Shown one piece after another: positions 16,992 to 41,984 of a stretch of 43,050 nucleotides of DNA. Origin of the DNA: a virus; the IMG/VR virus record IMGVR_UViG_3300044821_000049, positions 1-43,050 of that record. The stretch is one strand, 5' to 3'. Below the pieces are notes generated by a model that made no database searches, had not been told where the DNA came from, and was given only the letters and a program-made list of their open reading frames with translations. Numbering within the stretch: the first letter of the stretch is position 1; each line of letters begins with the position of its first letter. Made by a program: the position numbers and the translations under genes.

Positions 16992-17221
16992 CGGCGCGTC
17001 TCCATGTACCGCATAAGCTCCAGCGTACGGGCCTGCGTACCGCCGATCTCTTTTGAGGGGTTCACATTGGCGAGATGCGCGGCCATGTTCCACTCTTGGA
17101 GCGTGGCGTGCTCCATTTGCGCGGCGGTGATACCGACGCTGACGAGATACGGAGCAAGCTTCGATGCCTTTTCGGACTGCTTGGTATTGCGGTATGGGTT
17201 TACCGTGCTTGTGGTGGCCAT
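16988..17221 (-). CDS. Hypothetical protein, 77 aa
   Basis: The product is a helical soluble protein with Met/Ala/Gln-rich segments. It is expressed from the leaderless-type promoter at 17227-17262: TAGTAT lies six bases before the ATG. Its stop overlaps the next gene, a single-span membrane protein, by ATGA, so the two probably act together. I recognise no family. Confidence 0.6.
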   Translation of the reverse strand: MATTSTVNPYRNTKQSEKASKLAPYLVSVGITAAQMEHATLQEWNMAAHLANVNPSKEIGGTQARTLELMRYMETRR

Positions 17222-17226
17222 GGCTC

Positions 17227-17271
17227 TATACTACACGATTACTACAGGCAGTGGAATGGTACCGAAGTACC
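17227..17271 (-). promoter_or_regulatory. Leaderless-type promoter of the 17221 gene (P1)
   Basis: On the minus strand: GGTACTTCGGTACC (17271-17258), then TGTAGTA-ATCG-TGTAGTATA (17246-17227), with the ATG at 17221. The second GTAC starts 41 bases before the ATG and TAGTAT lies 12 bases before it. The same spacing recurs at 19129 and 21104. The first GTAC is part of a perfect 5-bp inverted repeat around TTCG. Confidence 0.7.
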
Positions 17272-17275
17272 GATT

Positions 17276-17599
17276 TTAACCAACGGTTAGGGTTCCGGAG
17301 ATCTTTACGGTTTGAGGTGTTGTGATAGCCTGAGTGTTTTGTGCTGGCGTGCTGGCGGGTACGGCTCCCACGCTTTTTAGCGCCGTTAACACGCTTTCGA
17401 TGGCCGTTGTGATGTCGGAAGGAATAACAGACCCTGTCGTCTTGCCAGCCGTTGCCGCAGCCTGAAGCACTGGGCTTACTGCGCTGGTGACGGCAGCCAG
17501 CTTCACGGTCCCTGTCTGCGGGCCGAAGATTTTTTCGGCCGCGGTAATTGCTGAGGGCAACAACGCCCCCAGCAATGCGATGATGGCCGATGCTCCCAT
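17276..17599 (-). CDS. Hypothetical protein with hydrophobic N-terminus, 107 aa
   Basis: The first 20 residues (MGASAIIALLGALLPSAITA) are hydrophobic like a signal or membrane anchor. The rest is Ala/Thr/Ser-rich and ends in a short strand (VKISGTLTV). It is separated from 17601-17876 by one base. Holin-like proteins and small virion proteins both can look like this. No diagnostic motif is present. Confidence 0.5.
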   Translation of the reverse strand: MGASAIIALLGALLPSAITAAEKIFGPQTGTVKLAAVTSAVSPVLQAAATAGKTTGSVIPSDITTAIESVLTALKSVGAVPASTPAQNTQAITTPQTVKISGTLTVG

Positions 17600-17600
17600 G

Positions 17601-17876
17601 TCAGTTGGCGCTCGGAATTACCCCAGCAATCACCAGCGCGTTGATGGTGACGTTGGGAAACGTCACAAACTCGCCAGTGATCGATGACACCGACTTTTCA
17701 GGACCCCATGAAAACGTGACGGTGTAGATCTTCCACACGTGCGCTCCGTCTGGCGTTGCGCCGATTTGCTCATCAAGCGAGACATCTACCGGGTGATTGG
17801 GTGACAGGCTGACCACGTGATCGCACAGCGGCTTGACGCGTGGGTCTGTGTTGGTGATGAGGTAAAGAGGGTTCAT
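17601..17876 (-). CDS. Hypothetical virion-region protein, 91 aa
   Basis: A beta-rich soluble protein with Pro/Ser/Val-rich segments and no recognisable motif (PDGAHVWKIYTVTFSWGPEK and EFVTFPNVTINALVIAG). It lies one gene downstream of a putative lectin-fold virion protein in the same leftward block, so a tail-fibre attachment role or chaperone function is possible. Evidence for it is composition, position and tight spacing (six bases after 17883). Confidence 0.5.
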   Translation of the reverse strand: MNPLYLITNTDPRVKPLCDHVVSLSPNHPVDVSLDEQIGATPDGAHVWKIYTVTFSWGPEKSVSSITGEFVTFPNVTINALVIAGVIPSAN

Positions 17877-17882
17877 ACACCC

Positions 17883-19067: not shown

Positions 19068-19084
19068 GCCTCAATTATGAACCG

Positions 19085-19123
19085 AAAGTACTATTCGCGA
19101 ACGTGTAGTAATCGTGTAGTATA
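19085..19123 (+). promoter_or_regulatory. Leaderless-type promoter of the 19129 operon (P2)
   Basis: GTACTATTC (19088-19096) starts 41 bases before the ATG at 19129, then TGTAGTA-ATCG-TGTAGTATA (19104-19123); TAGTAT is followed by AGGGAC and ATG. No ribosome binding site is present, consistent with transcription starting at the A of the ATG. It drives the operon with the sigma-like gene. Confidence 0.75.
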
Positions 19124-19128
19124 GGGAC

Positions 19129-19356
19129 ATGGAAAGCATAACGATCACATTCGATGTCGAGCACACCTTGAGCAACAGCAAGGGATGGGCGCGCTATAAG
19201 GCCAGCACCACGGCAGGTAAGTTGATCTCGTCGCGCACGGGTAACGAATGGGTTTCCAGCCACGCGGGCGCGCAAATTGCCACCGGTGAGTGCGGGTGGG
19301 TGTTGACGCAAGCGGCCGCGCTTGCAAACTGCAAGGCAAAGGTGAACCGCCGATGA
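19129..19356 (+). CDS. Hypothetical early protein, 75 aa
   Basis: First gene after promoter P2. The start lies six bases after TAGTAT, without a leader. The product is a small beta-alpha protein (ITITFDVEHTLSNSKGWARYKAS) with a Cys pair far apart and no known motif. It is coupled by ATGA to a KOW-like small protein. It belongs to the regulatory block, but its own role is unclear. Confidence 0.6.
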   Translation: MESITITFDVEHTLSNSKGWARYKASTTAGKLISSRTGNEWVSSHAGAQIATGECGWVLTQAAALANCKAKVNRR

Positions 19357-19544
19357 GAGTCAACATCATCACGCGTGGCCAGCGTGTACGGGTCAACACG
19401 CATGGCGCAAACGGCGGCCGGTTGGGTACGGTTACCCGCATTCGGTTTTATGCCGATGCGAAGCGAGTGCACTACGAGGCGCGCGTCTTGATTCAAGGGC
19501 GCGGAACTCAGACGATCCCTTTACACTTCTTGGAGGTAGCGTGA
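19353..19544 (+). CDS. Small basic beta-barrel-like protein, 63 aa
   Basis: ATGA overlap with the previous gene. The product is basic and strand-rich: MRVNIITRGQRVRVNTHGAN, then GRLGTVTRIRFYADAKRVHYEARVLIQGRG. The RVRV-GxxGTVTRI layout resembles KOW/SH3-like folds that bind nucleic acid or ribosomes. Its stop overlaps the next gene start by GTGA. This is a pattern guess, but the three genes clearly form one translation chain. Confidence 0.5.
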   Translation: MRVNIITRGQRVRVNTHGANGGRLGTVTRIRFYADAKRVHYEARVLIQGRGTQTIPLHFLEVA

Positions 19545-19717
19545 AGAAAGTAGCAGCAGTAACCCCGGAACCGAAAGCACCTGGGCCGTATCAAGTGCGG
19601 CTGGACCCCGATTTTAAACGGGAATGGTCCGAGTGGTGTGCGGCCCATGGGCTGATTCAGGGCGCGGCGGTGGCGCGCGCCCTCACGGCATTCATGGAAC
19701 ATGGGGGTGAAAGTTGA
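19541..19717 (+). CDS. Ribbon-helix-helix-like small protein A, 58 aa
   Basis: GTG start overlapping the previous TGA, with GGAGG just upstream. The chain PYQVRLDPDFKREWSEWCAA then HGLIQGAAVARALTAFME has a strand followed by two helices, the shape of CopG/Arc/ribbon-helix-helix DNA-binding proteins (strand residues QVRLDP; helix DFKREWSEWCAAHG; helix GAAVARALTAFME). A partial second copy lies at 20360-20461 next to the paralogous sigma-like gene. It may be a partner or repressor of the sigma-like protein encoded just downstream. The fold is inferred, not shown. Confidence 0.55.
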   Translation: MKKVAAVTPEPKAPGPYQVRLDPDFKREWSEWCAAHGLIQGAAVARALTAFMEHGGES

Positions 19718-19785
19718 TCGATCATGCAACCGTTGAGATGATGTGCAAGCGCATTTGAAGATTTCAGCCCCAGATTGCATCACGG

Positions 19786-20259
19786 GTGGGGGTGACCGAA
19801 GCTGACGACGTTTTGCAGGACGCTTGCGTTGCGCTGCTCAAAACGGCGCGCAAACAGGCAGAGATCCCTTACCCCAAAACCTACGCTTTCGGCGTGCTGA
19901 GACACACACTGTGGAAGCGGTACCAAATCTATTCGCGACGGCGAAAGGCGCATGCGAACCTGATTGAAGCCCTGTACATGCCCACCACAACTGATAGCTA
20001 CGAGAACTACATCGGGCGCGTGTGCGCGGAGTTGCGCGCCATCGTACCGCACAACCGACAGGAGCGGATCGGGCTACAGATCATGCTTGCCATTTTCGAG
20101 GATGGTAAGTTTCGGTCTGAACTGGTGGAAGCTGTGGGCGGCGAAACCGTCTATCGGCTCAGTTTGTCGCGCACGTTGCCACGGGTCCGGCAAACGTTGC
20201 GGAAGCGATTTGAAATCGGTACCAAAGTAACCATAGGCTCGCATGTAGTAAATGTGTAG
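19786..20259 (+). CDS. Sigma-factor-like protein A (ECF type), 157 aa, with upstream in-frame TGA
   Basis: Residues about 4-45 resemble sigma region 2: EADDVLQDACVALLKTARKQ, then YPKTYAFGVLRHTLWKRYQ. The C-terminal helices (ERIGLQIMLAIFE, VYRLSLSRTLPRVRQTL) resemble region 4. It is clearly paralogous to 20556-21083. Upstream, a better start is the TTG at 19714 (after GGGGGTGA, overlapping the preceding TGA), but the frame holds a TGA at 19756-19758 exactly where the paralog has a Trp (CKRI-stop-RF against CLRIWKF). Only the GTG starts at 19786 or 19792 avoid it. It may be a recent nonsense mutation, a sequencing error or a translated stop. The 3' end overlaps a degenerate promoter-like site. 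Confidence 0.6.
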   Translation: MGVTEADDVLQDACVALLKTARKQAEIPYPKTYAFGVLRHTLWKRYQIYSRRRKAHANLIEALYMPTTTDSYENYIGRVCAELRAIVPHNRQERIGLQIMLAIFEDGKFRSELVEAVGGETVYRLSLSRTLPRVRQTLRKRFEIGTKVTIGSHVVNV

Positions 20260-20262
20260 TTT
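20227..20262 (+). promoter_or_regulatory. Degenerate promoter-like site after sigma-like A (P4)
   Basis: GTAACCATAGG (from 20227), then TGTAGTA-AATG-TGTAGTTT (20244-20262). The -10-like box is TAGTTT and GTAC has become GTAA. The expected start position (about 20268-20269) has GGAA/GAA instead of ATG. It overlaps the last codons of the sigma-like A gene. Probably a decayed copy of the P3 type. Confidence 0.5.
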
Positions 20263-20312
20263 ACGTCGGAATCAATCCGGACCTGATACGGTCCCTGGGG
20301 TTTGTCGGCGGG

Positions 20313-20359
20313 TCATCCGGTGTGTGGGTGTTGGTGGTGACGTATTCCATGCTTCTATA
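20313..20359. repeat. Left copy of a 47-bp inverted repeat
   Basis: Exact reverse complement of 21095-21141, extended by one mismatch and three more matching bases. Read leftward it contains the first 12 to 14 codons of the 21104 gene (MEYVTTNTHTPDDP), continuing into an unrelated tail. It ends exactly where homology to RHH-like protein A begins (20360), so it replaced the N-terminus of a second RHH-like gene. Confidence 0.85.
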
Positions 20360-20461
20360 AGAAAGGAGTGGGTCAAATGGTGCGCTCAGCATGGACTCAT
20401 CCAAGGCGCGGCTGTAGCAAAAGCGCTGCGGTTTTACATGGAAACCGGCAATGGCGAATAG
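20360..20461 (+). pseudogene. Truncated second copy of the ribbon-helix-helix-like gene (B)
   Basis: The frame encodes RKEWVKWCAQHGLIQGAAVA then KALRFYMETGNGE, closely matching residues about 27-58 of protein A, but the strand and first-helix start are missing and replaced by the inverted repeat. An open frame extends upstream to 20252, inside the degenerate promoter, and would give a chimeric N-terminus. It is most likely a broken gene, though a chimeric product cannot be excluded. Confidence 0.6.
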
Positions 20462-20546
20462 GATTTTGGTTCATGTCGGCTGCTGGCTTCTGTCTGGTCT
20501 GCTGTTTTCGTTTGCTATGGCTCTGTTCGCATTTTCGGAAGGGTGA
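20451..20546 (+). CDS. Tiny membrane protein, 31 aa
   Basis: ATG lies inside the end of the truncated RHH frame. The product is MANRILVHVGCWLLSGLLFS followed by FAMALFAFSEG, one hydrophobic helix. It ends ten bases before the ATG of the sigma-like gene B. There is no strong ribosome binding site. It could be a chance ORF; a membrane anti-sigma partner would be attractive but is not shown. Confidence 0.35.
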   Translation: MANRILVHVGCWLLSGLLFSFAMALFAFSEG

Positions 20547-20555
20547 TTATTGACG

Positions 20556-21083
20556 ATGGATTCCCGCGAAGAGCTGTGCTTGCGGATTTGGAAGTTCAGG
20601 GGAAAAATGGCGGCGGCGGTAGGCCAGGACTGCGAAGACCTGCTACAGGACGCCTGCGTCGCCGTTCTTGAGTCGGCCCGGAAAGTCGAGATCAAGTATC
20701 CCAAGACGTACGCTTACGGCACGTTGCAGCACACGCTTTTTACCAGTTACAATCGTGGCCGCAGTCTAAAGCGTGGAGGCCACCCGCGTAACCACGTTGG
20801 CCTGGAAGAGGCGGATCACGTCGCGGCCAACGCGGAGGAACCTGACTACATCCGCATGGCCCGAAAAGCGTGTACGCTCATTCGGGCGGTCCCCAAGCCT
20901 AAAAGCAGAACAGAGCGATTAGGGATTCACATTATCCTGAGCATCCTGGAAGGTAGCGACCGTGACTCACTCGTCGAGGTTATCGGCGAAAACGTTTACC
21001 GGAATGCACTATCGCGCACGATTCCGCGACTACGGAAAGTGCTCGCGCAGGAAGGTACTAAAGTACTATCGCAATTGATGTAG
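20556..21083 (+). CDS. Sigma-factor-like protein B (ECF type), 175 aa
   Basis: Full-length paralog of 19786-20259. Sigma region 2-like residues: CLRIWKFRGKMAAAVGQDCE then DLLQDACVAVLES, and YPKTYAYGTLQHTLFTSYNRGRS, matching the DLxQxxxxxxxx core and the basic end of region 2.4. The C-terminal SLVEVIGENVYRNALSRTIP-RLRKVL is a helix-turn-helix-like region 4. Many ECF factors are of this size. The ATG at 20556 is used here; a TTG at 20550 has better spacing from GGAAGGGTG. The stop lies inside promoter P3, so the gene and promoter are physically fused. I infer that it directs late or middle gene transcription from the GTAC/TANNNT sites. Confidence 0.62.
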   Translation: MDSREELCLRIWKFRGKMAAAVGQDCEDLLQDACVAVLESARKVEIKYPKTYAYGTLQHTLFTSYNRGRSLKRGGHPRNHVGLEEADHVAANAEEPDYIRMARKACTLIRAVPKPKSRTERLGIHIILSILEGSDRDSLVEVIGENVYRNALSRTIPRLRKVLAQEGTKVLSQLM

Positions 21084-21098
21084 TAAATCTGTAGTATA
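21063..21098 (+). promoter_or_regulatory. Leaderless-type promoter of the 21104 operon (P3)
   Basis: GTACTATCG (21063) starts 41 bases before the ATG at 21104; TGTAGTA-AATC-TGTAGTATA occupies 21079-21098; TAGTAT is followed by AGAAGC and ATG. It overlaps the final codons of sigma-like gene B. Confidence 0.75.
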
Positions 21099-21141
21099 GA
21101 AGCATGGAATACGTCACCACCAACACCCACACACCGGATGA
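21095..21141. repeat. Right copy of the 47-bp inverted repeat
   Basis: Exact reverse complement of 20313-20359. It spans the end of promoter P3 and the first codons of the 21104 gene. The 735 bases between the copies carry the truncated RHH gene, the 31-aa ORF, sigma-like gene B and promoter P3, so inversion would turn this promoter leftward. Confidence 0.85.
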
Positions 21142-21421
21142 TCCGTTTTGCATGTGCGCGGACTGCCGAGAGATCGGGTTAGCCAATTTCCGCGCGGCTG
21201 TTCAGGAGCGTAACGCGGCGATCGCTGCGCGCCGTCCGGCCCTCATCGCTGCGGCTGAGGCCGCGTACGAAGCGAAATGGCACCGTCGCGGCGAAGTCTG
21301 CGATAAGTGCGGCGAAGTGTCCGATGATATCGCCGCTGTCGGTATCCGCGACGAGTCGAGGGTTTGCCGCACGTGCCGCAATGCGGCAATCGAATCTAGT
21401 TACAGCGACTGGGCCGAATAG
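21104..21421 (+). CDS. Zinc-binding protein with two CxxC clusters, 105 aa
   Basis: First gene after promoter P3 and leaderless. Residues 16-21 hold CMCADC and residues 67-88 hold CDKCGEVSDD then CRTCR, together enough for one zinc ribbon plus a separate Cys cluster. The middle is an Ala-rich helix (AAEAAYEAKWHRRG). Such proteins may bind DNA or RNA polymerase. Its first codons are duplicated in the inverted repeat at 20313-20359. Confidence 0.65.
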   Translation: MEYVTTNTHTPDDPFCMCADCREIGLANFRAAVQERNAAIAARRPALIAAAEAAYEAKWHRRGEVCDKCGEVSDDIAAVGIRDESRVCRTCRNAAIESSYSDWAE

Positions 21422-23966: not shown

Positions 23967-23970
23967 CCTT

Positions 23971-24460: not shown

Positions 24461-24482
24461 TGTAGTATAAATGTAGTAGTAG
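24461..24482 (+). promoter_or_regulatory. Tandem TGTAGTA element upstream of the 24510 gene (P7)
   Basis: TGTAGTA-TAAA-TGTAGTAGTA: the 4-base spacer is kept, but there is no GTAC at -41 and a normal AAAAGGAG ribosome binding site follows. It resembles a regulatory-protein site rather than the leaderless promoter. Confidence 0.5.
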
Positions 24483-24842: not shown

Positions 24843-25129
24843 TGGCGTACCAGATCATCCGAACTTACAGCGCTGGCGTCTTTGCTGGCGAAACAAAAAT
24901 ACTCAGTAAAGACGGCAAGCGAGTGGAAATCCGCAATGCTCGCAGGTTGTGGTCCTGGGCCGGAGCAGCTTCGCTCAGTGAGCTTGCTCAACGTGGTACC
25001 AGTAAGCCAAAACTCTGTAAATTCCCGGTGTCTGTCGATCGCCTGGAAATCACGGAAGCCATCGAGTTACTCGATGTAACCGAGGGTGCTCGAGCCTCGA
25101 TTGAGGCCGTTCCTGTATGGACCGAATAG
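24842..25129 (+). CDS. DUF6948-like protein, 95 aa
   Basis: The protein matches my memory of DUF6948: a short strand pair (IIRTYSAGVFAGETKILSKDGKRVEIRNARRLWSW), then AGAASLSELAQRGTSKPKLC and a C-terminal LEITEAIELLDVTEGARASI-EAVPVW. These proteins occur in phage and archaeal mobile elements; their function is unknown to me. The TAG stop is followed at once by the GGGGCC-type repeat array, so any read-through would add a Gly-Pro/Gly-Thr repeat tail. Confidence 0.65.
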   Translation: MAYQIIRTYSAGVFAGETKILSKDGKRVEIRNARRLWSWAGAASLSELAQRGTSKPKLCKFPVSVDRLEITEAIELLDVTEGARASIEAVPVWTE

Positions 25130-25398
25130 GGGCCGGGTCCGGGGCCGGGGCCGGGTCCGGGGCCGGGTCCGGGGCCGGGTCCGGGGCCGGGTCCGGGGCC
25201 GGGTACGGGGCCGTGTACGGGGCCGTGTACGGGGCCGGGGCCGGGGCCGGGGACGGGTCCGGGGACGGGGCCGGGTACGGGTACGGGGCCGGGTACGGGG
25301 ACGGGGACGGGGCCGGGGACGGGTCCGGGTCCGGGTACGGGTCCGGGGACGGGGACGGGTCCGGGTCCGGGTACGGGTCCGGGTCCGGGTACGGGGAG
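25129..25398 (+). repeat. (GGGKMC) hexanucleotide array, 45 units
   Basis: From the G of the TAG stop, 45 hexamers run without a break in phase. Units are GGGGCC, GGGTCC, GGGTAC and GGGGAC (only position 4 is G or T and position 5 is C or A) plus two GTGTAC and a last GGGGAG. All changes are G:C to T:A transversions from a GGGGCC ancestor. Every unit holds a GGG tract, so the plus strand can form G-quadruplexes. Three frames are open (Gly-Ala/Ser, Gly-Arg/Val, Gly-Pro/Thr). I count it as non-coding. It lies just before the replication gene. Confidence 0.9.
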
Positions 25399-25555
25399 TT
25401 AGCTGGCCACGGTAATAGGTGTAAAATCGCCTTGTGCCTGTGGCTGGTTGTCGGTATTCTGAAGGTGTCCCGCTAGCTACGGGGCGCCGAAAATCGCGGG
25501 CCCACGGGAAGGTGCCTCTACACCTTCCCACCTGCGAGACCCTTAGAGGAGGGAC
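25399..25555 (+). promoter_or_regulatory. Promoter and structured leader of the 25556 gene
   Basis: A sigma-70-type promoter is possible: TTGTGC (25432-25437), 17-base spacer, TATTCT (25455-25460). The leader then has CCCGC (25469-25473) pairing with GCGGG (25496-25500), and a strong hairpin GGGAAGGTG-CCTCTA-CACCTTCCC (25506-25529). Its loop CCTCTA is the exact complement of TAGAGG (25544-25549) within the ribosome binding site TAGAGGAGGG. A loop-Shine-Dalgarno pseudoknot could shut off translation. No known riboswitch class was recognised. Confidence 0.55.
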
Positions 25556-27746: not shown

Positions 27747-29111
27747 ATGGCGCGTAAGCAGCCAGCACCCGCGCCCATCCTTGGGGACAATAAAAGCCTC
27801 TCGGTTGAGTGGTGGGCCATCGCCCGCGTCAAACCCTACGAGCGCAACGCCCGCAAGATTCCTCAATCCGCAATCGATAAAGTAGCGACCTCAATCCGAG
27901 AGTTCGGATGGCGACAGCCGATTGTCGTAGACGAGCACGGCGTGATCCTGGCGGGCCACGCGCGGCTGCTGGCCGCTCGGCAATTGCAGGCGACCGAGGT
28001 TCCCGTCCACCAGGCGCTCGGTCTCACTCCGGCGCAATGCAAGGCGTATAGGTTGATGGACAACCGCAGCCATGATGAGGCGCAATGGGATCTCGATTTG
28101 ATAGGCCCGGAACTACTCGAACTCCGCGCGATGGACTTTGATCTCAACCTGACTGGGTTTGACATGAGTCAGGTCAAGACTCACTTACGCGGTGGCGGTT
28201 TGACTGACCCTGATGACGTGCCCGAGGTTCAGCCTGTAGTCGTGACTCAGCCGGGCGACTTGTGGCTGTTAGGCGATCACCGGCTTCTGTGTGGGGACTC
28301 TACCGAGCTTGCAGCCGTCGAGCGGGTGATGGACGGTCAGAAAGCAGACCTAGTGTTTACCGATCCGCCATACAACGTGGTGGTTTGCGGAGGAACCCAT
28401 GACCCTCGAGACCAACGAAACTACGGCAAAGGGCCTAAGATTCAAAACGACGCAATGCCCGATCGGGAATTTATGCAATTCCTGCGTGACGCATTGTTGT
28501 CTTGCGCTGCAATGACGAAGGCGGGCGCTGCGATCTACGTTTGCCACGCCGACACGAAAGGGCGTTTATTCCGTGAGGCGTTTGAGGATGCTGGATTCTT
28601 TTTGCATGCTGTAGTTATCTGGGTAAAGCAGCAGTTCGTGTTCGGGCGCAGCGACTACCACTGGCAACACGAGCCGATCCTCTACGGTTGGATGACTGGA
28701 GCAGCTCATCAGTTCTACGGGGAGCGAAATCAGGGAACGACGTGGAATATTGACCGACCTATGCGAAGCGATATGGCACACCCCACACAGAAACCCGTGG
28801 CGTTAGCCGAGAAGGCTATCGTCAATTCGAGTAAGGCAGGGAACATTATCCTGGATCAGTTTGGCGGAGGAGGATCCACTCTGGTCGCTTGCGAGAAGTC
28901 TGGTCGATCTGCACGGCTGCTGGAAATCGATCCGCAATATGTTGACGTGATAGTACGCCGCTGGCAAGCGTTCACCGGGCGCGAAGCAACGCTCGAAGGC
29001 CACGGGTCCACGTTCGAGCGCGTCGCCGAGGGCCGCGCACTCGAACGCGAGGATCACGACAAAGACGATGCGTTACGATTGATTCAGGAACGCGATGCCA
29101 ACCCCGCCTAA
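27747..29111 (+). CDS. ParB-domain DNA methyltransferase (N6-adenine or N4-cytosine), 454 aa
   Basis: The N-terminal 110 residues are a ParB-like nuclease/DNA-binding domain: WWAIARVKPYERNARKIPQS, then FGWRQPIVVDEHGVILAGHARLLAAR. The MTase has the beta-class order: DPPY (in FTDPPYNVVV, about residue 206) before the SAM-binding FGGGG (in LDQFGGGGSTLVACEKSGR, about 372). The C-terminal tail is highly charged. It methylates phage DNA, probably to evade host restriction; the target base cannot be told from sequence alone. It overlaps the small terminase gene by 17 bases. Confidence 0.88.
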   Translation: MARKQPAPAPILGDNKSLSVEWWAIARVKPYERNARKIPQSAIDKVATSIREFGWRQPIVVDEHGVILAGHARLLAARQLQATEVPVHQALGLTPAQCKAYRLMDNRSHDEAQWDLDLIGPELLELRAMDFDLNLTGFDMSQVKTHLRGGGLTDPDDVPEVQPVVVTQPGDLWLLGDHRLLCGDSTELAAVERVMDGQKADLVFTDPPYNVVVCGGTHDPRDQRNYGKGPKIQNDAMPDREFMQFLRDALLSCAAMTKAGAAIYVCHADTKGRLFREAFEDAGFFLHAVVIWVKQQFVFGRSDYHWQHEPILYGWMTGAAHQFYGERNQGTTWNIDRPMRSDMAHPTQKPVALAEKAIVNSSKAGNIILDQFGGGGSTLVACEKSGRSARLLEIDPQYVDVIVRRWQAFTGREATLEGHGSTFERVAEGRALEREDHDKDDALRLIQERDANPA

Positions 29112-31896: not shown

Positions 31897-31940
31897 GGTA
31901 CCTTCGTACCATTCCCGACATAGTACGCGTGTAGTATGGT
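31897..31940 (+). promoter_or_regulatory. Leaderless-type promoter of the SLH gene (P5)
   Basis: GGTACCTTCGTACC (31897-31910), GTACCATTC at 31906 which is 41 bases before the ATG at 31947, then CATAGTA-CGCG-TGTAGTATGGT. TATGGT lies six bases before the ATG. No ribosome binding site. The GTACCATTCC block is shared with P1. Confidence 0.72.
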
Positions 31941-31946: not shown

Positions 31947-33809
31947 ATGTACAAACACGCGCTTTGCGCGCTTTTCTCTTTGTCACTAGCGGCGGCGGCT
32001 CCAAGGCCGCCGTTTAACATTTTCGACGTGCAACCGGGCGGTCAGATGTTGCTCACTGCCACGGCGTATATCACTGATCGCGGGATGATTGTCGGATCGA
32101 TTCCCTACGCTCCCATCTCGTGTACCGCAAGTGTCGTAACCGACAGCGGCGGCCACCAGCATGAGGAAAGCATTCCTCCGCGCCCAGTCGGTACGCTGGT
32201 TCCTTCGAGCGGGATCTCGGACGCGAACGGCAATCTGAACTTTACCTACTTTGCGCCGATGGTGGCTTCGTTCGTCCGTATTCAGTGCATTGCAAGCGTG
32301 GCTCCAAGCTATCCTACGGCGACCGGATATTACACGGTCGGAACGGGCGGCCTTGTTCCACTGCAAGCCAGCTACTCATGGCGCAATCCGGTACCGGATT
32401 ATCGGCACCCGGCAGGCATCGGCTTCTTTACTTCGCCTGTCGAGATCGCCATGGAAGGGGCGGCGAACAAAATGAAATCGGATTACGCCAACCCGGTAAC
32501 CTTTCTTCGTGGCGCCCTGCAAATGGGCGGTATCAACGACAGCGGTTCGCCCGTGCCGTGGGTTCCGCTGAGCGGGTATTCCAACGCGTACGGAAATGAA
32601 GCGGACGTACAGGTACCGGGAGTCTACCCGATGCTGGTTGCTCAGGTATTCGGTTACTACGGATGCGCGGCGGTTCAGACGGGCGGCAACACCGCCCCGA
32701 ATAATTACTACAGCGTCTGGCATATAAAGTGCGGGAAGGCCAATGCTGGCGGATCGCCAAAGAAACCGCGCGCACTCATGTCGGCGGGCCAGCAAGCCGC
32801 ACTGCAAAGTGATCCTGTGTGGCAGTCGCTACCACCCGACCAACTCACTGGCTATGATGGCACTGCGGCAATTACACTGTCGCACGTGTCCACGCTCGAC
32901 ACGGCGCAGGCATTCGCCGATGTCCCGCCCAGTGCAAGCTATTTCGACGCGGCGAACCTGATGTTTCAGGCTGGAGTAACGACCGGCTGCGTGCAATCGG
33001 ATGACCCGACCCTCCGGCAGTACTGCCCGGGCAATCTGGTCACGCGTCAAGAGATGGCGGCGTTTCTTGTGCGCGCTATCACCGGAGAGACAACGCCGCT
33101 GAACTACACGCAGACACCCTATTTCACCGACGTGCCAACGTCTAACTCGTTTTTCCCGCACGTCCAGAAGCTTCGCGACTTGGGCATCACGACCGGCTGC
33201 GGTGGGAATACGACACTCTTCTGTCCGACCGACAATGTACCGCGCTGGCAAATGGCTATGTTCTTGATCAGGGCGCGCCTGACACTGAACGGAGCCACGT
33301 TTAATTTCCGGCCGGCGCCGTACTTCGCCGATGTGCCGTGGAACGTCGAGGGCAACGGGCAACCCTTTGCGTTCATTCAGCGGCTGTACGAAGAGCACGT
33401 CACGAACGGATGCCCGGCCCAGGTGCTCTCGTTCTGTCCGGACAACCTTGTCACGCGTGGCGATATGGCATCGTTCATCATGCGAGCACTTTACAACCAG
33501 ACGGTCGATCCGGCCGCGCCGTTGCTGTATCTGGCGGGTCCGGTTTACATGCCGCTTCAACCGGGATTCTCGCAGGACGTGATTATCTATGGCGTCAACA
33601 CCAGCTTTGACGGCGGATACAGCGTCGCGGCGTTGGGCGGCGGCGTGACCATTTCGAATATCCGCATCAATGGTCCGACGCAGATGACGGTTACACTCAC
33701 AGTCAGCGCAACCGCATCGGCAGGCACTCAATCACTGGAACTGTCGTACTTCAACGGCACGCCACAGCGGTTGACTCTTCCGCTGGCCGTGCATATCGGC
33801 CAGTACTGA
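31947..33809 (+). CDS. Exported SLH-repeat protein, 620 aa
   Basis: A short signal peptide (MYKHALCALFSLSLAAAAPR) is followed by an Ig-like region (to about 140) and a middle domain of unknown type. Three SLH-type repeats start near residues 323, 392 and 459: FADVPPSASYFDAANLMFQAG, YFTDVPTSNSFFPHVQKLRDL and YFADVPWNVEG, each ending in a YCPGN/FCPTD/FCPDN...VTRxxMAxFLxRA segment. A last domain of about 100 residues is beta-rich (Ig-like). These Cys-containing SLH repeats (GITTGC...CPDN) occur in Acidobacteriota. It could be a host-surface-directed protein made in infected cells, or a virion adhesin. Confidence 0.75.
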   Translation: MYKHALCALFSLSLAAAAPRPPFNIFDVQPGGQMLLTATAYITDRGMIVGSIPYAPISCTASVVTDSGGHQHEESIPPRPVGTLVPSSGISDANGNLNFTYFAPMVASFVRIQCIASVAPSYPTATGYYTVGTGGLVPLQASYSWRNPVPDYRHPAGIGFFTSPVEIAMEGAANKMKSDYANPVTFLRGALQMGGINDSGSPVPWVPLSGYSNAYGNEADVQVPGVYPMLVAQVFGYYGCAAVQTGGNTAPNNYYSVWHIKCGKANAGGSPKKPRALMSAGQQAALQSDPVWQSLPPDQLTGYDGTAAITLSHVSTLDTAQAFADVPPSASYFDAANLMFQAGVTTGCVQSDDPTLRQYCPGNLVTRQEMAAFLVRAITGETTPLNYTQTPYFTDVPTSNSFFPHVQKLRDLGITTGCGGNTTLFCPTDNVPRWQMAMFLIRARLTLNGATFNFRPAPYFADVPWNVEGNGQPFAFIQRLYEEHVTNGCPAQVLSFCPDNLVTRGDMASFIMRALYNQTVDPAAPLLYLAGPVYMPLQPGFSQDVIIYGVNTSFDGGYSVAALGGGVTISNIRINGPTQMTVTLTVSATASAGTQSLELSYFNGTPQRLTLPLAVHIGQY

Positions 33810-33880: not shown

Positions 33881-34180
33881 ATGCGACGAGCTTTCCTGCT
33901 GTTTTTGTTCTCGGGGCTGCTGTTGGGCGCGTTCAAAACTGAGCAGTACAACATCACCCAGGCGGCGGCAAATATACCCTGTATGCTCGGGATTTCGGAT
34001 CTCTCGATACCGCTGGCTACCGTCACGGTCACAAAGAATGGTCTGACCCTGAATCCTGATGAGGTAGCCTGGGCGGCTGGCACAACTCCAATTGGCGCGG
34101 TGCTGTATCCGAAGGTGCCACCGAAGCCCGGCGACACGTTCACGATCAGATTTTGGACGTCTCCCAAAGTCTCTCCTTAG
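33881..34180 (+). CDS. Small exported protein, 99 aa
   Basis: The N-terminus MRRAFLLFLFSGLLLGAFK is a clear signal sequence. The mature part (about 75 residues) is beta-rich (IPLATVTVTKNGLTLNPDEV, then FTIRFWTS). GGGAG lies nine bases before the ATG. It may be a periplasmic or cell-surface accessory of the preceding exported proteins. No domain was recognised. Confidence 0.6.
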   Translation: MRRAFLLFLFSGLLLGAFKTEQYNITQAAANIPCMLGISDLSIPLATVTVTKNGLTLNPDEVAWAAGTTPIGAVLYPKVPPKPGDTFTIRFWTSPKVSP

Positions 34181-34187
34181 TACTTCT

Positions 34188-34223
34188 GGGCTATTCTTTT
34201 CAGTAGTAAACCTGTAGTATGAT
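34188..34223 (+). promoter_or_regulatory. Leaderless-type promoter of the 34230 operon (P6)
   Basis: GGGCTATTC (34188), a degenerate form of GTACTATTC, 42 bases before the ATG at 34230, then AGTAGTA-AACC-TGTAGTATGAT (34202-34223). TATGAT is six bases from the ATG (CCCAAC between). No ribosome binding site. Confidence 0.65.
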
Positions 34224-34229: not shown

Positions 34230-34616
34230 ATGCGATATGAGATCCCATACTCTGGCGATTCGGTCACCCAGCCCGGAGACGTTCGGCGCTACGAAATGCG
34301 CGGCGGTGTTCTGACGCTTGTTGAGGTCATTTCGCCTGATTTCTCAAAGCCCTGTCCGTTGGTTCCCGCGCAATCGTGCGGAGTCCCAATCGATCAACGC
34401 GACATCGGCACTCCTGTTGCCTATACTTTGGCGCCGTGTGCCAATCCCGCGTGCCGAAAGACGTTCGTGAAAGCCAAAGTCGAGCTATGCCCAACGTGCC
34501 AAGCGGCGTACAAACGGCAGCTATTACGTGAGCGAGCGAAGCGCAACCGCGAAGCCGCGAAGCGTAAAAAACTCGAAGCGATTTTCGGACAGCGTCAAGC
34601 AAAAGGAGCACTCTAA
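34230..34616 (+). CDS. Zinc-ribbon protein with basic tail, 128 aa
   Basis: First gene of the glycosyltransferase-methyltransferase operon, without leader. Near residue 70, CANPACRKTF is followed by VKAKVELCPTCQAAYKR, a four-Cys zinc ribbon (CxxxxC...CxxC), then a long Arg/Lys-rich helix (RERAKRNREAAKRKK). It may bind DNA and target the modifying enzymes that follow. The acidic N-terminal part (DSVTQPGDVRRYEMRGGV) is strand-like. The end overlaps the next start by TAATG. Confidence 0.6.
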   Translation: MRYEIPYSGDSVTQPGDVRRYEMRGGVLTLVEVISPDFSKPCPLVPAQSCGVPIDQRDIGTPVAYTLAPCANPACRKTFVKAKVELCPTCQAAYKRQLLRERAKRNREAAKRKKLEAIFGQRQAKGAL

Positions 34617-35353
34617 TGTCAGTGTGGCTAACGATACCGTCAGCCCGGCCCGAACCCCAGGCGAAGGCCATCATTGATCAGTGGCGCGGACTCGGTTATC
34701 GGGTTGCGCTGTGGCGCGAGTCTGAAAAGGTCAACCCCATGGGCGGCGGTATTCAGGCCGATCTCGTGAAGGTCGGGCCGGAAGCGTATCCCGGGTACGC
34801 AATCGCGGTGAATCAGTTGATCGGTATTGCGTTGCGACTTGACCACACGGCGCGCTGGTTCGTGATCGGCGGCGATGACGTTCAACCCGATTTGGCACAC
34901 CGGGCCGACGAGATCGCGGCTCAGTGCGAAGACTACTTCGGGACGCTGGCCAATTGCTCGCGCCACGATGACCCGGAAGCTTTGTACGGCGTGATGCAAC
35001 CGACCGGCGACAGGTGGGGCGATAGCCGGGGCGCTTACATTGACCGGATATGCGGGTCCGCGTGGATCGGTCGGGAATTCGCCATGCGCGCGTACGGCGG
35101 TTTGGGTCCTCTGTGGCCTGAGTACAAACACATGTTCGTGGACGAGGAATTGCAAAACGTAGCACGTCGTGAAGGCGTGCTCTGGCAACGCCGCGATCTT
35201 ATTCAGTTGCACCAACACGCGCAACGCACGCCGAACAGTGTCACACCGCCGCATTTGCGGGAGTGGTACGGGCGGGCGCACTGGGACGAAGCAAAGGCGC
35301 TGTTTACGCGGCGGCAAGCGGCTAACTTCCCGCCGTATGAGGTTGAGCCATGA
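34616..35353 (+). CDS. Glycosyltransferase-like protein, 245 aa
   Basis: GT-A-like layout: an N-terminal WLTIPSARPEPQAKAIIDQW, a donor-site region with a DD motif in WFVIGGDDVQPDLAHRADEI (about residue 85), YIDRICGSAWIGREF, and a final MFVDEELQNVARREGVLW (xDE-x-L). This fits small glycosyltransferases of phage and capsule loci, but acceptor and donor are unknown. TAATG coupling upstream and ATGA to the C5-methyltransferase downstream put it in one operon with a DNA-modifying enzyme. Confidence 0.65.
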   Translation: MSVWLTIPSARPEPQAKAIIDQWRGLGYRVALWRESEKVNPMGGGIQADLVKVGPEAYPGYAIAVNQLIGIALRLDHTARWFVIGGDDVQPDLAHRADEIAAQCEDYFGTLANCSRHDDPEALYGVMQPTGDRWGDSRGAYIDRICGSAWIGREFAMRAYGGLGPLWPEYKHMFVDEELQNVARREGVLWQRRDLIQLHQHAQRTPNSVTPPHLREWYGRAHWDEAKALFTRRQAANFPPYEVEP

Positions 35354-36552
35354 CGTATGGCTCTGTCTGCTCTGGCATCGAAGCGGCAACGGTAGCGTGG
35401 GCGCCTCTGGGGTGGGCGCCCGCGTGGTTCAGCGAGATAGAGCCCTTCTGCTGTGACTTACTAAAGCACCATTACCCCAAGATCCCCAACCATGGCGACT
35501 TCACGAAAATTACCAGAGAGCAATCAGGGCCGATTGACCTTCTGTGCGGAGGAACCCCCTGCCAGGACTTCAGTGTCGCAGGACTCAGAGCGGGCCTGGC
35601 TGGCAAGCGTGGTTCACTCACAATCGAGTTTCTTCGCCTTGCTCAACGCTTACACCCCAGGTGGCTTTTCTTCGAGAATGTGCCCGGTATCCTGTCAGCC
35701 GACAACGGACGGGCATTTGGAGTCTTGCTCGGGATGTTGGGCCAACTCGGGTATGGGTTCGCCTATCGAGTCCTGGACGCTCAATATGCCGGAGTACCAC
35801 AGCGGCGCCGTCGCGTCTTCGTTGTCGGATATCTTGGAGACTGGCGATGTGCCGCGGCGGTACTATTTGAGCGCCACAGCCTGCAAGGGCATCCTCCGCC
35901 GAGCAGAGAAGCGCGGGAAGAAGTTGCCGGCTGCCTTGGCGGCGGCTCTGGTAGCCGTGGCTGGTGTCCCGACACCGACCGAATGACGTTCGTGCCCGAT
36001 GTGGCCTACGGGCTGAACGCGCATCCATCGCGCCAGTACGATGCGCAGGCTAATGAGACGTTCATCGCTTTCAACGCGCGCCAAGATCCCGATGTGAGCG
36101 GCGAGATCACCCACCCGCTCGACTGCGATGGGGGAAGCAATGCCGTCGCGTTCACGTGCAAAGATTATGGCGCGGACGCTGGCGACATCGCACCCACACT
36201 GCGTAGCATGGGGCATGATGGCAGCCACGCGAACGCTGGAGGGCAGGTTGCGGTAGCGTTCCAGGAGTCACAGACGGGATGCCGTGAGTACGAGTCAGCT
36301 GGCACGCTCCGCAGCAACGGGCCGGGCCATGATCCAGTGGGAACGCGCATTCGAGAGGGTATGGCCGTGCGTCGGCTGACTCCGCGAGAGTGCGAGCGGC
36401 TGCAGGGGTTTCCAGACGATTACACTCTGGTCCCCTATCGCCGGAAGGCCGCCGCCGACGGTCCCCGGTACCGGGCGATTGGAAACTCGATGGCGGTGCC
36501 AGTGATGCGGTGGATCGGTGAGAGAATTCAAATAGTGGAGGATATGCAATGA
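35350..36552 (+). CDS. Cytosine-C5 DNA methyltransferase, 400 aa
   Basis: All core motifs are present. Motif I is SVCSGIEAATVAW, motif IV is TPCQDFSVAG with catalytic Cys near residue 71, motif VI is ENVPG (about 110), motif VIII is QRRRRVF (about 151), motif IX is RLTPRECERLQGFPD and motif X is AIGNSMAVP. The region before motif IX is a target recognition area of about 150 residues with repeat-like blocks (ITHPLDCDGGSNAVAF, APTLRSMGHDGSH, GGQVAVAF). Methylated cytosine could evade restriction or be an intermediate for further modification by the neighbouring glycosyltransferase-like proteins, though no oxidising enzyme is visible. ATGA coupling on both sides. Confidence 0.93.
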   Translation: MTYGSVCSGIEAATVAWAPLGWAPAWFSEIEPFCCDLLKHHYPKIPNHGDFTKITREQSGPIDLLCGGTPCQDFSVAGLRAGLAGKRGSLTIEFLRLAQRLHPRWLFFENVPGILSADNGRAFGVLLGMLGQLGYGFAYRVLDAQYAGVPQRRRRVFVVGYLGDWRCAAAVLFERHSLQGHPPPSREAREEVAGCLGGGSGSRGWCPDTDRMTFVPDVAYGLNAHPSRQYDAQANETFIAFNARQDPDVSGEITHPLDCDGGSNAVAFTCKDYGADAGDIAPTLRSMGHDGSHANAGGQVAVAFQESQTGCREYESAGTLRSNGPGHDPVGTRIREGMAVRRLTPRECERLQGFPDDYTLVPYRRKAAADGPRYRAIGNSMAVPVMRWIGERIQIVEDMQ

Positions 36553-38880: not shown

Positions 38881-38904
38881 GTAAAAATCCGTCGTGAGTG
38901 TGTG

Positions 38905-38934: not shown

Positions 38935-38961
38935 CGCGTTCGCATATGCCACACTTCATTT

Positions 38962-39138
38962 GTGGACCCCTTACACCTAAAATCCGACTGGAACAAGCTC
39001 AAGGCGGAAGTGAAGGCCGACGTTATGGCCGAAATTGCCGACCTTTTCTCGGCGCGCGCTGCTCAGTTGCGCGGCGTACAAACGGCGGCTGACCGACCGC
39101 CGAAACCCCCGCCCGAACCACCCGATTCGAACGCCTGA
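38962..39138 (+). CDS. Small helical protein, 58 aa
   Basis: The frame from GTG at 38962 encodes LKSDWNKLKAEVKADVMAEI then ADLFSARAAQLRGV, an amphipathic helix, and a Pro-rich acidic tail (DRPPKPPPEPPDSNA). The GTG has no good ribosome binding site and other starts are poor, so the start is uncertain. Its 3' 116 bases overlap the opposite-strand membrane protein gene, which is unusual. Confidence 0.45.
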   Translation: MDPLHLKSDWNKLKAEVKADVMAEIADLFSARAAQLRGVQTAADRPPKPPPEPPDSNA

Positions 39139-39733
39139 ACAAGAACCCGTACTGGTGGATGACCGCGATTGATACCGCGATGAAAGCCCAACGCAGAAGT
39201 AGCCAGCGCTCCCAGGTCTCCAGGCACCATGGGCCGGCGGCGCTTATCACTACGTGCGCGGTCATCCACACTGTTTGTAGATGTAGGTGCGTGACGTACG
39301 TCTGGCGTGTCGGGAAGGGCCGGCGGTAATGCTCGACACACGTCATCAGGCACACCAGCGCAACGGAGCCAGTCAGCAGCGTTCGAATCTCCAGGTATCC
39401 CCACGCTTTCAAGCCTGGGTGGCAAGCTCCCGCAAGCAGCGACAGCCCCAGGAACATCAGCGCCACGCGGTCTTCGCGGCGCTTCCCGGCTGTCCTCCAC
39501 AGGGCATCCAGCGGAACAGCCAAACGGATTATCAGGGCCATCGAGGTAATAATTCGGTGGTGTGTGAACGTGGAGTAAAACGCGTTGTAGACGATGGCGA
39601 AAGCCACGGCAGACGCAAAGATAATAAAAGAGTTACGCTCAGGCGAACGCAGGATGATGGCAAACAGCACCATGTATCCGACCGACATCAACATATTTTG
39701 CATAGCGGCTTGATCCATGGGTTCGAGTGCCAA
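39023..39733 (-). CDS. Multi-span membrane protein, 236 aa
   Basis: On the opposite strand to the surrounding genes, it has about five hydrophobic segments: LMSVGYMVLFAIIL, FIIFASAVAFAIVYNAFY, ALMFLGLSLLAG, LLTGSVALVCLMTCVEHY and MTAHVVISAAG-LLRWAFIAVSIAVIHQYGF, with a basic C-terminal tail. The ATG at 39733 is used. It is divergent from the 39780 gene with 46 bases between. The C-terminal part overlaps the rightward ORF 38962-39138. A holin or membrane exclusion protein is conceivable, but there is no diagnostic motif. Confidence 0.55.
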   Translation of the reverse strand: MALEPMDQAAMQNMLMSVGYMVLFAIILRSPERNSFIIFASAVAFAIVYNAFYSTFTHHRIITSMALIIRLAVPLDALWRTAGKRREDRVALMFLGLSLLAGACHPGLKAWGYLEIRTLLTGSVALVCLMTCVEHYRRPFPTRQTYVTHLHLQTVWMTAHVVISAAGPWCLETWERWLLLRWAFIAVSIAVIHQYGFLFRRSNRVVRAGVSAVGQPPFVRRATEQRAPRKGRQFRP

Positions 39734-39779
39734 TTTCAGTGTATATTCTCACGCTCAAAAGGATAAAAGGGTTTCAATT

Positions 39780-40058
39780 ATGGCGGGGCCGACATTTGAA
39801 TCAAAGATCACTCTCGGGAATTGGCTGACTATCGGAACAATGGTAGCGGCGGCATGCATCGCGTGGGGTACCATGACCACATCCCAGGCTACGACCGGAG
39901 CGAAGCTGGACAGTATTGCCGTCCGACAAGCAGAGATGCACGATAAGCAAATCGAGACCGATTGGCGTCTCAAGAACGTCGAAAAGCTGCTGGCCGACCA
40001 CATCGCGGTCACCGACACGGCAGCCGAACGTACCCGTCTATACGAAAAGCGCCACTGA
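39780..40058 (+). CDS. Single-span coiled-coil membrane protein, 92 aa
   Basis: I use ATG 39780, after AAAAGGGTT. The N-terminal about 30 residues hold one membrane span (LGNWLTIGTMVAAACIAWGTM). The rest is a predicted coiled coil (KLDSIAVRQAEMHDKQIETD then WRLKNVEKLLADHI) ending in basic residues. Such type II anchored coils are seen in phage holin-associated or spanin-like components. It is 12 bases before the portal start. No lysis gene is otherwise clear. Confidence 0.55.
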   Translation: MAGPTFESKITLGNWLTIGTMVAAACIAWGTMTTSQATTGAKLDSIAVRQAEMHDKQIETDWRLKNVEKLLADHIAVTDTAAERTRLYEKRH

Positions 40059-40064
40059 TACAAT
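40030..40064 (+). promoter_or_regulatory. Leaderless-type promoter of the portal gene
   Basis: GTACCCGTC begins at 40030, 41 bases before the ATG at 40071, and TACAAT (40059-40064) lies six bases before it. No ribosome binding site is seen, and no tandem TGTAGTA is present. The spacing matches P1, P2, P3 and P5 exactly. Confidence 0.6.
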
Positions 40065-40070
40065 GGCGGC

Positions 40071-41984
40071 ATGAACATCCGGCGCGCCTGGAATGCCCTA
40101 TTCGCTCCCGCTACCGAAGCTCCAGCAATCCGTACTCAACCCTCAATCGATCCGCGTGACGCGGCCCTGCTTGCCCTTGCCAATATAGCCGATGAGGCCC
40201 AGGCGCGCGACAATGCGCGCGCACTCGATAATGCCGAATGGGTGGCCGAGATGCGCGAAGCGCTCGAAATGAGCGGGGCTGGCCCGTGGCTTCCGAATGC
40301 GGGCGCCAGGTCTGAAGCTTCCCGGCAGGCCCTTCGCGAGACATCGCCGATCTCATCACAGGGCGCGTTCGGCGATATCGAGCTTGCATTGCAGAACGTG
40401 GAATGGCGGCGCGAGATGAACTTGTCTCTGACCGAATTCTCACGGTGGGGCATTCAGCAAATCATCCTGATTTCGCGGCTTTATTACATCAAGAACCCGT
40501 TGGTTCGGAGGCTGGTGGACGTGTGCGCGGCGTATGTGTTTGCCCGTGGCGTCGAGGTCTCCAGCACAGACGAGACGGCCAACAAAGTACTGGACGATTT
40601 CATGGAGCGTAACAAGTCGGTGGTCGGGATCAACGCCTTGATACGGCAGGAACGGGCAAAGGACACGGACGGCAACCTGTTTCTTGCGCTGTTCTCTGAC
40701 CCTTTTAGCCGTGGGACCGTGGCGGCGCGATGGATCGACGCCACCGAAATCCAGGAGATTGTCACAGATCCAGACGACAGCGAAACCACGTGGTACTTTC
40801 GGCGCGTCTGGACGCAACGGCAATTCAACACTGCAACCGGCGCATCCGAACTTACGGCTACATCGGCATGGTATCCGGCCCTCGGGTACGACCCTGTGGA
40901 CAAACCGCAGACGATTGGCGAACGGCCCGTGTTGTGGGGTTGCCGCGTGCTCCATCGCAAGTGCGGGTCGGTCGGTCAGTGGCTATTCGGGTGCCCGCGC
41001 ATCTATCCGGCCCTCGACTGGGCAAAAGCGGCGCGCCGATATCTTGAGGCGGCGGCTACCGTGGCGGCATCGCTCGCGCAATTCAGCCTCACGCTGACCA
41101 CGAAGGGCGGCCAGGCGGCCCTTGAGGGAGTGAAGCAGCAACTCCAGACCACAGTATCGGCCACCCCGGGCAACTCGCTCTGGGACAAGAACCCAACGGC
41201 AAATAACGCGTCGATGTTTGCCAGCGGACCGGGCACAAAACTTGAGGCGTTTAAGACGAGTGGCGCCGGATTGGACCCGGAAAAGGTGCGCGACTACAAA
41301 CTCATGGTCGCCATGGTCAAAGGCATTCCCGAAACGTTTCTCGGCGATACGAAGACTGGCAACTTGGCAACTGCGGCGAGTCTCGACCGGCCCACGGAGA
41401 CGGTATTCCTTCAGGCGCAGGAGGAATGGATCGAAGATTTGACCACGGTTGCCAAGTACGTGCTGTCGGTAAGTTTGGGAGCGGCGTCGGGCCGGTTGCG
41501 GGAATCGATCGCCGATCCGGCCGGCGTGCGGATCATCAGCGCCCGGGAAGCCAGCACGGGAGTGGCGCCCGGTACCATTGAGGTGAAGGTCACTTTCCCA
41601 TCGATTCGCGAGGGTGACGTACCGGCCCAAATCAACGCGATTGTGGACGCCATGACGTTAGCGAACAAGGGCGGCCAGATTGTGGGCATTGACGAAAAGG
41701 AAGGCGTTCGAAAGCTCGGCGAACTGGTCGGGCTGGAGAACAACGACGAGATCGTAGAGGCGATGTATCCCGAAAAGAAGTACGTCGCCGACCGCTCGGA
41801 AGAACCGATAGACCCGCCAATTGGGAAGGCACTTCCGCCCCCAGGCGGCAAACCTCAGTTCACGGCAGGTCAACCGCAGAACCAACGACCCGAGGACAAG
41901 CCGGTTACCGCCTCGACGGAGTCGGCGCGGCGGCTCATGGACGCGGCTCGAGAATTGCGCGAAGCGGTTGCGAGTCTACAATGA
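40071..41984 (+). CDS. Portal protein, 637 aa
   Basis: Size and location (just before MuF and after terminase in the circular order) fit the portal. It has the portal-type YYIKNPLVRRLVDVCAAYVFA helix near residue 140, a wing region with Trp-rich strands (WIDATEIQEIVTDPDDSETT), the stem helices, and a C-terminal segment (KSVVGINALIRQERAKDTDG, then MVAMVKGIPETFLGDTKTGN) that fits the crown side. A 60-residue Pro/Arg-rich tail ends in a coiled region. Its dodecamer is the DNA gate of the head. The stop overlaps the MuF start (ATGATG). Confidence 0.85.
   Translation: MNIRRAWNALFAPATEAPAIRTQPSIDPRDAALLALANIADEAQARDNARALDNAEWVAEMREALEMSGAGPWLPNAGARSEASRQALRETSPISSQGAFGDIELALQNVEWRREMNLSLTEFSRWGIQQIILISRLYYIKNPLVRRLVDVCAAYVFARGVEVSSTDETANKVLDDFMERNKSVVGINALIRQERAKDTDGNLFLALFSDPFSRGTVAARWIDATEIQEIVTDPDDSETTWYFRRVWTQRQFNTATGASELTATSAWYPALGYDPVDKPQTIGERPVLWGCRVLHRKCGSVGQWLFGCPRIYPALDWAKAARRYLEAAATVAASLAQFSLTLTTKGGQAALEGVKQQLQTTVSATPGNSLWDKNPTANNASMFASGPGTKLEAFKTSGAGLDPEKVRDYKLMVAMVKGIPETFLGDTKTGNLATAASLDRPTETVFLQAQEEWIEDLTTVAKYVLSVSLGAASGRLRESIADPAGVRIISAREASTGVAPGTIEVKVTFPSIREGDVPAQINAIVDAMTLANKGGQIVGIDEKEGVRKLGELVGLENNDEIVEAMYPEKKYVADRSEEPIDPPIGKALPPPGGKPQFTAGQPQNQRPEDKPVTASTESARRLMDAARELREAVASLQ

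Follow-up and report, generated by a model that had tools for sequence, protein, structure and literature searches.

Upstream of five genes, the genome of the tailed phage IMGVR_UViG_3300044821_000049 carries a promoter family built from a GTAC dyad, a TGTAGTA tandem, and a −10 box set at a fixed distance from the start codon. Our analysis covered positions 1 to 43,050 of this record, the whole stretch of DNA, which we call the window. We consider it fairly likely that the five sites form a dispersed, co-regulated set of leaderless promoters for phage non-structural genes, read by the host RNA polymerase. We concluded that the boxes are real and that the predicted leaderless promoter family holds, with corrections to a first-pass annotation that had drawn attention to it. 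What is new here is that a leaderless core is combined with two sites restricted to promoters; leaderless phage promoters had been predicted before, and start-associated repeats had been described.

The first-pass annotation had described GTAC starting at −41 before the ATG of genes 17221 (minus strand), 19129, 21104, 31947, and 40071, and we found that this matches letter for letter. The proposed continuation as GTACYATTC is exact at 17221, 19129, and 31947, but 21104 reads GTACTATCG. A TANNNT box is present at −12 to −7 at these five starts and at a sixth, 34230 (TATGAT). The pattern GTACYATTC-N15..25-TANNNT-N3..9-ATG gave 3 matches in the window versus 0 in a backwards control, and the concern that the motif might be as frequent within genes or in shuffled sequence was settled in its favor. 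When we scored the sites with leave-one-out profiles, 17221, 19129, 21104, and 31947 took ranks 4 to 7 of 86,032 positions. In contrast, 40071 came at rank 216, and the sister phage described below does not share its GTAC box, so we took its GTAC to be a chance occurrence and removed this gene from the family. The TACAAT found there, 6 nt ahead of the ATG, may still serve as a simple −10 box of a leaderless gene. The gene at 34230 joins the family as its fifth member, supported by its tandem and by the sister phage. It ranks low in the fixed-register profile because its tandem, which has one mismatch, is displaced by 3 bp.

The strongest element of the family had been overlooked, as had its conservation in the sister. 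This element is a tandem, TGTAGTA-N4-TGTAGTA, in which two copies of a 7-mer follow each other with an 11-bp period. It is the best-conserved element of the family, and the TAGTAT boxes described earlier are a portion of it. With at most 2 mismatches, the window has seven copies of the tandem (17246 on the minus strand, 19104, 21079, 24461, 20244, 34202, and 31919), versus 0.0 expected under a first-order Markov model. The GTAC box likewise belongs to a larger element, forming the right-hand half of a dyad, GTAC-N4-GTAC, at −49 to −38. We found this dyad three times in the window and four times in the sister phage, at family promoters only. The earlier reading of these sites as promoters thus held for the leaderless core with its fixed −10 box, but GTACYATTC should not be equated with the −35 hexamer. 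It belongs to the upstream dyad, and a weak −35 (TTC, with an invariant first T) comes after it.

A capsid search retrieved the sister phage, IMGVR_UViG_3300044821_000062 (G001), which has an 84% capsid match and is syntenic with the window. G001 is circularly permuted, and its contig break falls within the terminase gene. Each of the five promoters has a counterpart in G001 (Table 1), where the tandem is present in five copies with at most 1 mismatch each. At the 19129/31114 pair, the boxes are conserved and the spacer from GTACTATT to the first TGTAGTA is mostly different.

We aligned the ten promoters of both phages at their start codons and found T−35, G−24, T−23, G−13, T−12, A−11, T−7, and C−1 to be invariant. 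The T−12, A−11, and T−7 of the −10 hexamer are thus present in 10/10 promoters when counted from the start codon. T−35 is also present in 10/10, and the remainder of the −35 is mostly TTCNNN rather than TTGACA. Nine of the ten sites have C−1/A+1, and the tenth, the sister's GTG start, has C−1/G+1; a C at −1 before a +1 purine would fit a transcription initiator. The invariant T−35, T−12, A−11, T−7, and C−1 are as expected for a sigma-70-type promoter that initiates at the A of the ATG. The tandem ends 6 nt before the start codon in six promoters and about 9 nt before it in the other four, which are 31947, 34230, and their G001 counterparts. In these four, the −12 to −7 hexamers read TATGGT, TATGAT, TATGCT, and TAACCT, and the GTAC box still stands at −41/−42. 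Because the tandem slides by 3 bp while the core geometry stays, we regard it as a recognition site separate from the −10 box.

As the first-pass annotation had stated, the family starts have no Shine-Dalgarno sequence; internal genes of the phage carry AAGGAG or GGAGG. The start at 34230 is pinned by a conserved protein N terminus (MRYEIP, and MVYELP in the sister). In the window, TANNNT lies 5 to 9 nt upstream of 12/29 starts without a Shine-Dalgarno sequence, of 0/16 starts with one, and of 3.4% of all ATG and GTG codons. The binomial probability of this excess is 8e-11, and it is 1e-5 when the five family members are left out. In G001, [TC]ANNNT was found at 9/19 starts without a Shine-Dalgarno sequence versus 0/9 with one, against a background of 9.6%. 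Zheng et al. (2011) called leaderless bacterial genes by a TANNNT near −10 of the start codon (PMC3160421), and the family starts have a TANNNT about 10 bp upstream and no Shine-Dalgarno sequence. Given the fixed −10 register, the C−1 initiator, the lack of ribosome-binding sites, the conservation in the sister, and the genome-wide TANNNT excess, leaderless initiation at the family starts is well supported by the sequence.

Boxes of this kind are also found outside the family (Table 1). The promoter of gene 1651, in the structural block, appears sigma-70-like and near-leaderless, and its sister counterpart reads TTGGAG-N17-TATTCT, 7 nt from the start. Around the box on the minus strand next to the 19129 promoter, a 28-nt stretch, AGTACTTTCGGTTCATAATTGAGGCATG, is identical in G001.

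The sequence shows the elements, the registers at which they are fixed, their retention in the sister, and the lack of ribosome-binding sites; from these we infer a start point, a host sigma factor, and the roles and identities of binding proteins. The host RNA polymerase, carrying its primary sigma factor (sigma-70 type), would recognize TANNNT at −12 to −7 and the weak −35 beginning at T−35. Transcription would begin at the A of the start codon, and the leaderless mRNA would be translated without Shine-Dalgarno pairing. A dimeric protein at GTAC-N4-GTAC, whose center at about −43.5 is a class II activator position, would probably compensate for the weak −35. The tandem, which lies over the spacer and the −10 box, would probably be an operator, at which a phage regulator covering the −10 box shuts the promoters off.

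Several points weigh against this model. Counts over the window and G001 overstate independence, since the two phages are related, and the gene starts used in the Shine-Dalgarno comparison were hand-picked from open reading frames (ORFs) and homology. The −35 resembles that of sigma-70 at its first bases only, so another sigma factor could act here. The proteins at the dyad and the tandem remain putative, and the activator and repressor roles are assigned from position only.

The best candidate for the putative tandem regulator is a 58-amino-acid protein encoded at 19541-19717. Among the genomes compared, it is found only in the two tandem-bearing phages. By pattern it is ribbon-helix-helix-like, and in its structure model (pLDDT 68) a possible strand is followed by two helices. 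It had no Pfam match and no Foldseek match, and a ribbon-helix-helix assignment was not confirmed by Pfam, the model, or Foldseek.

Table 1. Promoters, boxes, and associated genes in the window, with counterparts in the sister phage G001.
Feature	Position	Strand	Parts and remarks	Sister phage G001
Promoter of gene 17221	17228..17270	−	Dyad GTACTTCGGTAC 17259-17270; T−35 at 17256; tandem TGTAGTA 17240-17246 and 17229-17235; −10 TAGTAT 17228-17233	28762 (−)
Promoter of gene 19129	19079..19122	+	Half-decayed dyad GAACCGAAAGTACT 19079-19092; tandem 19104-19110 and 19115-19121; −10 TAGTAT 19117-19122	31114
Promoter of gene 21104	21055..21097	+	Dyad GTACTAAAGTAC 21055-21066; tandem 21079-21085 and 21090-21096; −10 TAGTAT 21092-21097	33110
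Promoter of gene 31947	31898..31940	+	Dyad GTACCTTCGTAC 31898-31909; tandem CATAGTA/TGTAGTA 31919-31936, shifted register; −10 TATGGT 31935-31940	2254
Promoter of gene 34230	34180..34223	+	Degenerate dyad GTACTTCTGGGC 34180-34191; tandem AGTAGTA/TGTAGTA 34202-34219, shifted register; −10 TATGAT 34218-34223	4254, perfect dyad
Extra tandem	24461..24478	+	TGTAGTATAAATGTAGTA; no GTAC box; gene 24510 lies downstream	
Decayed promoter copy	20219..20261	+	GTACCAAAGTAA; TGTAGTA-N4-TGTAGTT, tandem at 20244	
58-amino-acid protein, candidate tandem binder	19541..19717	+		61-64% to sister copy
ECF-sigma-like protein, first copy	19786..20259	+	Without N-terminal part	
ECF-sigma-like protein, second copy	20550..21083	+	Ends inside promoter of gene 21104	
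Promoter of structural-block gene 1651, outside family	1614..1642	+	TTGAGT-N17-TATTCT, 8 nt before ATG	
−10 box, outside family	7991..7996	+	TATCCT, 6 nt before ATG 8003	TATGCT, 6 nt
−10 box, outside family	12717..12722	+	TACACT, 7 nt before ATG 12730	TACAAT, 7 nt
−10 box	19074..19079	−	CATAAT, 6 nt before divergent ATG 19067	

Between the 19129 and 21104 promoters, the window encodes two proteins that resemble sigma-70 region 2, and a copy of the promoter stands at the end of each gene. At 21104, the TAG of the first tandem copy doubles as the stop codon of the sigma-like gene upstream. If these two proteins (19786-20259 and 20550-21083) were sigma factors of the extracytoplasmic function (ECF) type, they could read the promoters themselves, with GTACYATTC as the −35 and TGTAGTAT as the −10. 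Seven long relatives (G008, G011, G013, G015, G017, G022, and G025; loci L149 to L155) also encode a sigma-like protein, though of another subtype; region 4 of these proteins was assessed by eye from their sequences. We nevertheless consider it unlikely that the phage supplies the reader. An ECF-sigma regulon would have its sigma gene wherever its promoters are, and G001 retains the entire promoter family. Neither Pfam nor a clade-sigma profile found a sigma-like ORF in G001, whose record appears complete, and the place matching the sigma genes of the window is occupied there by other genes. Because G001 has the promoters without a detectable sigma gene, the window sigmas are not needed for the motif, and we dropped a phage ECF sigma as the main reader. 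The spacing from GTACYATTC to TGTAGTAT also varies, at 18 versus 15 to 16 bp. Finally, a stop codon truncates one of the two copies in the window: a tryptophan codon of the second copy corresponds to an in-frame TGA (19756-19758) in the first. The two proteins are 46% identical to each other. Sigma70_r2 of Pfam scored 22.3 bits for the first copy and 22.8 for the second, under the curated cut-off of 24, and TIGR02937 scored 17.5 and 21.3 bits (cut-off, 42.9); the structure model is all-helical and of low confidence. We concluded that the window sigmas are probably not the reader of these promoters.

In the region around these genes (19541-21104), a small protein, a sigma-like gene, and a promoter are duplicated in tandem; the copies have diverged, and the first promoter copy has decayed. 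A 51-nt inverted repeat (20309-20359 and 21095-21145, 98% complementary) flanks the second sigma-like gene and includes the start of gene 21104. Recombination between its arms would invert the promoter at 21055-21097.

In letters and spacing, the GTAC dyad resembles the cyanobacterial LexA box, RGTACNNNDGTWCB (PMC3091678). If the dyad were a host LexA operator, the phage genes would be induced by DNA damage. We found the consensus to be exact at several copies (17271 on the minus strand and 21054 in the window; 33060 and 4203 in the sister). However, other copies deviate: several have C at the D position, and those at 19129 and 34230 are only half sites. The consensus is cyanobacterial and may not be the host's, whose own box may differ. 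Moreover, the dyad lies upstream of the −35 and not over it, and a lysogenic switch is not expected, as we saw no integrase in the proteins that we searched. We regard LexA control as quite improbable.

There is very little to favor the boxes being translation signals or RNA elements, as was first proposed for the start-associated sequences of cluster K mycobacteriophages. The boxes do finish 6 to 9 nt from the start codon, but they lack Shine-Dalgarno-like complementarity, and their invariant positions suit −35, −10, and +1. The extra tandem at 24461 lies 49 nt upstream of gene 24510, which is leadered and has its own AAGGAG ribosome-binding site, and the decayed copy at 20244 sits at the end of the first sigma-like gene with no start codon behind it. 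We give next to no weight to ordinary duplication, in which the boxes would be recent promoter copies not under selection: the 19541-21104 duplication does include one promoter copy, but sister orthologues retain their boxes while the intervening bases differ (for example, 19129/31114), and the two promoters of the shifted register show that shift in both phages.

The leaderless, co-regulated family that we favor resembles several known systems. The expression system had been called unusual for a phage, which was overstated: leaderless SigA-like promoters (PL1, PR2, and PL2) were predicted earlier in cluster O mycobacteriophages, the Corndog group (PMC4351075). Those predicted promoters are also sigma-70-like, their +1 coinciding with the first base of the start codon, and their genomes also carry a repeated dyad (PMC4351075). 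However, the cluster O dyad, TGTTCGG-N3-CCGAACA, has >30 copies that are mostly away from promoters (PMC4351075), whereas the dyad here is found at promoters only and is paired with the 11-bp-period tandem. The less usual part of the present system is a common regulatory code together with gene swapping behind the promoters. In cluster K, the start-associated sequences (SAS/ESAS) likewise repeat a few nucleotides before non-structural start codons, next to different genes, with an upstream inverted repeat whose consensus varies between subgroups (PMC3203893). The 13-bp SAS, however, includes AGGAG, and a role in translation was suggested for it (PMC3203893), whereas here there is no Shine-Dalgarno sequence and the positions suit −35, −10, and +1. 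When we applied the cluster K definition, GGGATAGGAGCCC with AGGAG before the start, we found no AGGAG at the family starts. TA-led leaderless bacterial genes also have TANNNT about 10 bp before the start instead of a Shine-Dalgarno sequence, but they are a genome-wide property of a host (PMC3160421), whereas the present family would be a regulon with common upstream sites. The scattering of one short site across a phage genome for coordinate control is shared with the L5-type phage arrays. L5-type stoperators are asymmetric 13-bp sites bound by the lysogeny repressor. In contrast, no lysogeny gene was seen in the phage studied here. The stoperator/operator arrays of L5-type phages are named in PMC3203893.

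All family promoters serve genes outside the recognized structural block (portal 40071, capsid 3701, and their neighbors), and this block has no tandem. We found that the first genes behind 31947 and 34230 are 29 to 33% identical to their sister counterparts. At the other three promoters (17221/28762, 19129/31114, and 21104/33110), the first genes are unrelated between the sisters; the window's first gene at 17221 has a homologue further down the G001 operon. Since first genes are unrelated at 3/5 promoters while the promoters persist, the promoter is more stable than the gene behind it. We tentatively suggest that the leaderless promoter with tandem and dyad may be an exchange junction, at which accessory genes are swapped under one phage-encoded regulator that reads the tandem. 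If this is true, any gene set behind the junction would be expressed under phage control without a leader or ribosome-binding site of its own, because transcription and translation would both begin at the ATG.

The gene at 31947-33809 encodes a secreted-looking protein with an S-layer homology domain and repeats of the CPxxxVTRxxMA type; it is phage-encoded, and no relative of it was found in the annotated phage collection. Elsewhere, the window encodes an N6/N4 DNA methylase whose N-terminal part is ParB-like (27747-29111) and a C5-cytosine methylase (35350-36552), and it has an array of 12-nt (and 18-nt) repeats within small ORFs (25081-25449). A direct repeat at the record ends (1-132 and 42919-43050, 90% identical) probably represents the terminal redundancy of a circularly permuted genome whose assembly drew on slightly different strains.

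We also screened thirty further records with a relative of the capsid. The tandem was in none of the phage records among them, and GTAC-dyad-like matches in the thirty were not above control. Six relatives (G008, G011, G013, G017, G022, and G025) bear a promoter family of their own, TTGCGC (in a TACTTGCGCAAGTA-like dyad)-N17/18-TANNNT, CATAAT, or GATAAT. At 16 sites, the start codon comes 5 to 9 nt behind, and at 4 a ribosome-binding site lies further down; G008, G011, and G022 are mutually close, so these sites are not all independent. At many of them, TTGCGC is directly adjoined by GTAC or GTAG. The near-leaderless layout thus appears to extend past the sister pair, with different regulator sites.

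In wider searches, a collection-wide pattern search with GTAGTAATCGTGTAGTATRGNNNCATG gave 0 matches, and GTACYATTC-N18..22-TAGTAT-N5..7-ATG gave 23 scattered matches in IMG/VR, which by estimate is roughly chance level. Among all other loci examined, the tandem had only two AT-rich near-matches (L087 and L101). No relative of the sigma proteins or of the portal protein turned up in searches of viral contigs. One capsid relative (L147, WLXB01000068.1; 58% over 81 residues) is on a contig binned with an alphaproteobacterial metagenome-assembled genome; this lone hint of an alphaproteobacterial host is too weak to use.

The clade displays a promoter family whose regulator sites diverge while its leaderless layout persists. 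For an uncultured group of phages, start-codon-anchored promoters of this kind yield exact, testable start points from the sequence itself, and they allow gene starts to be corrected. If sister phages conserve a leaderless promoter while the genes behind it are unrelated, accessory phage genes would have a simple mechanism of plug-in expression.

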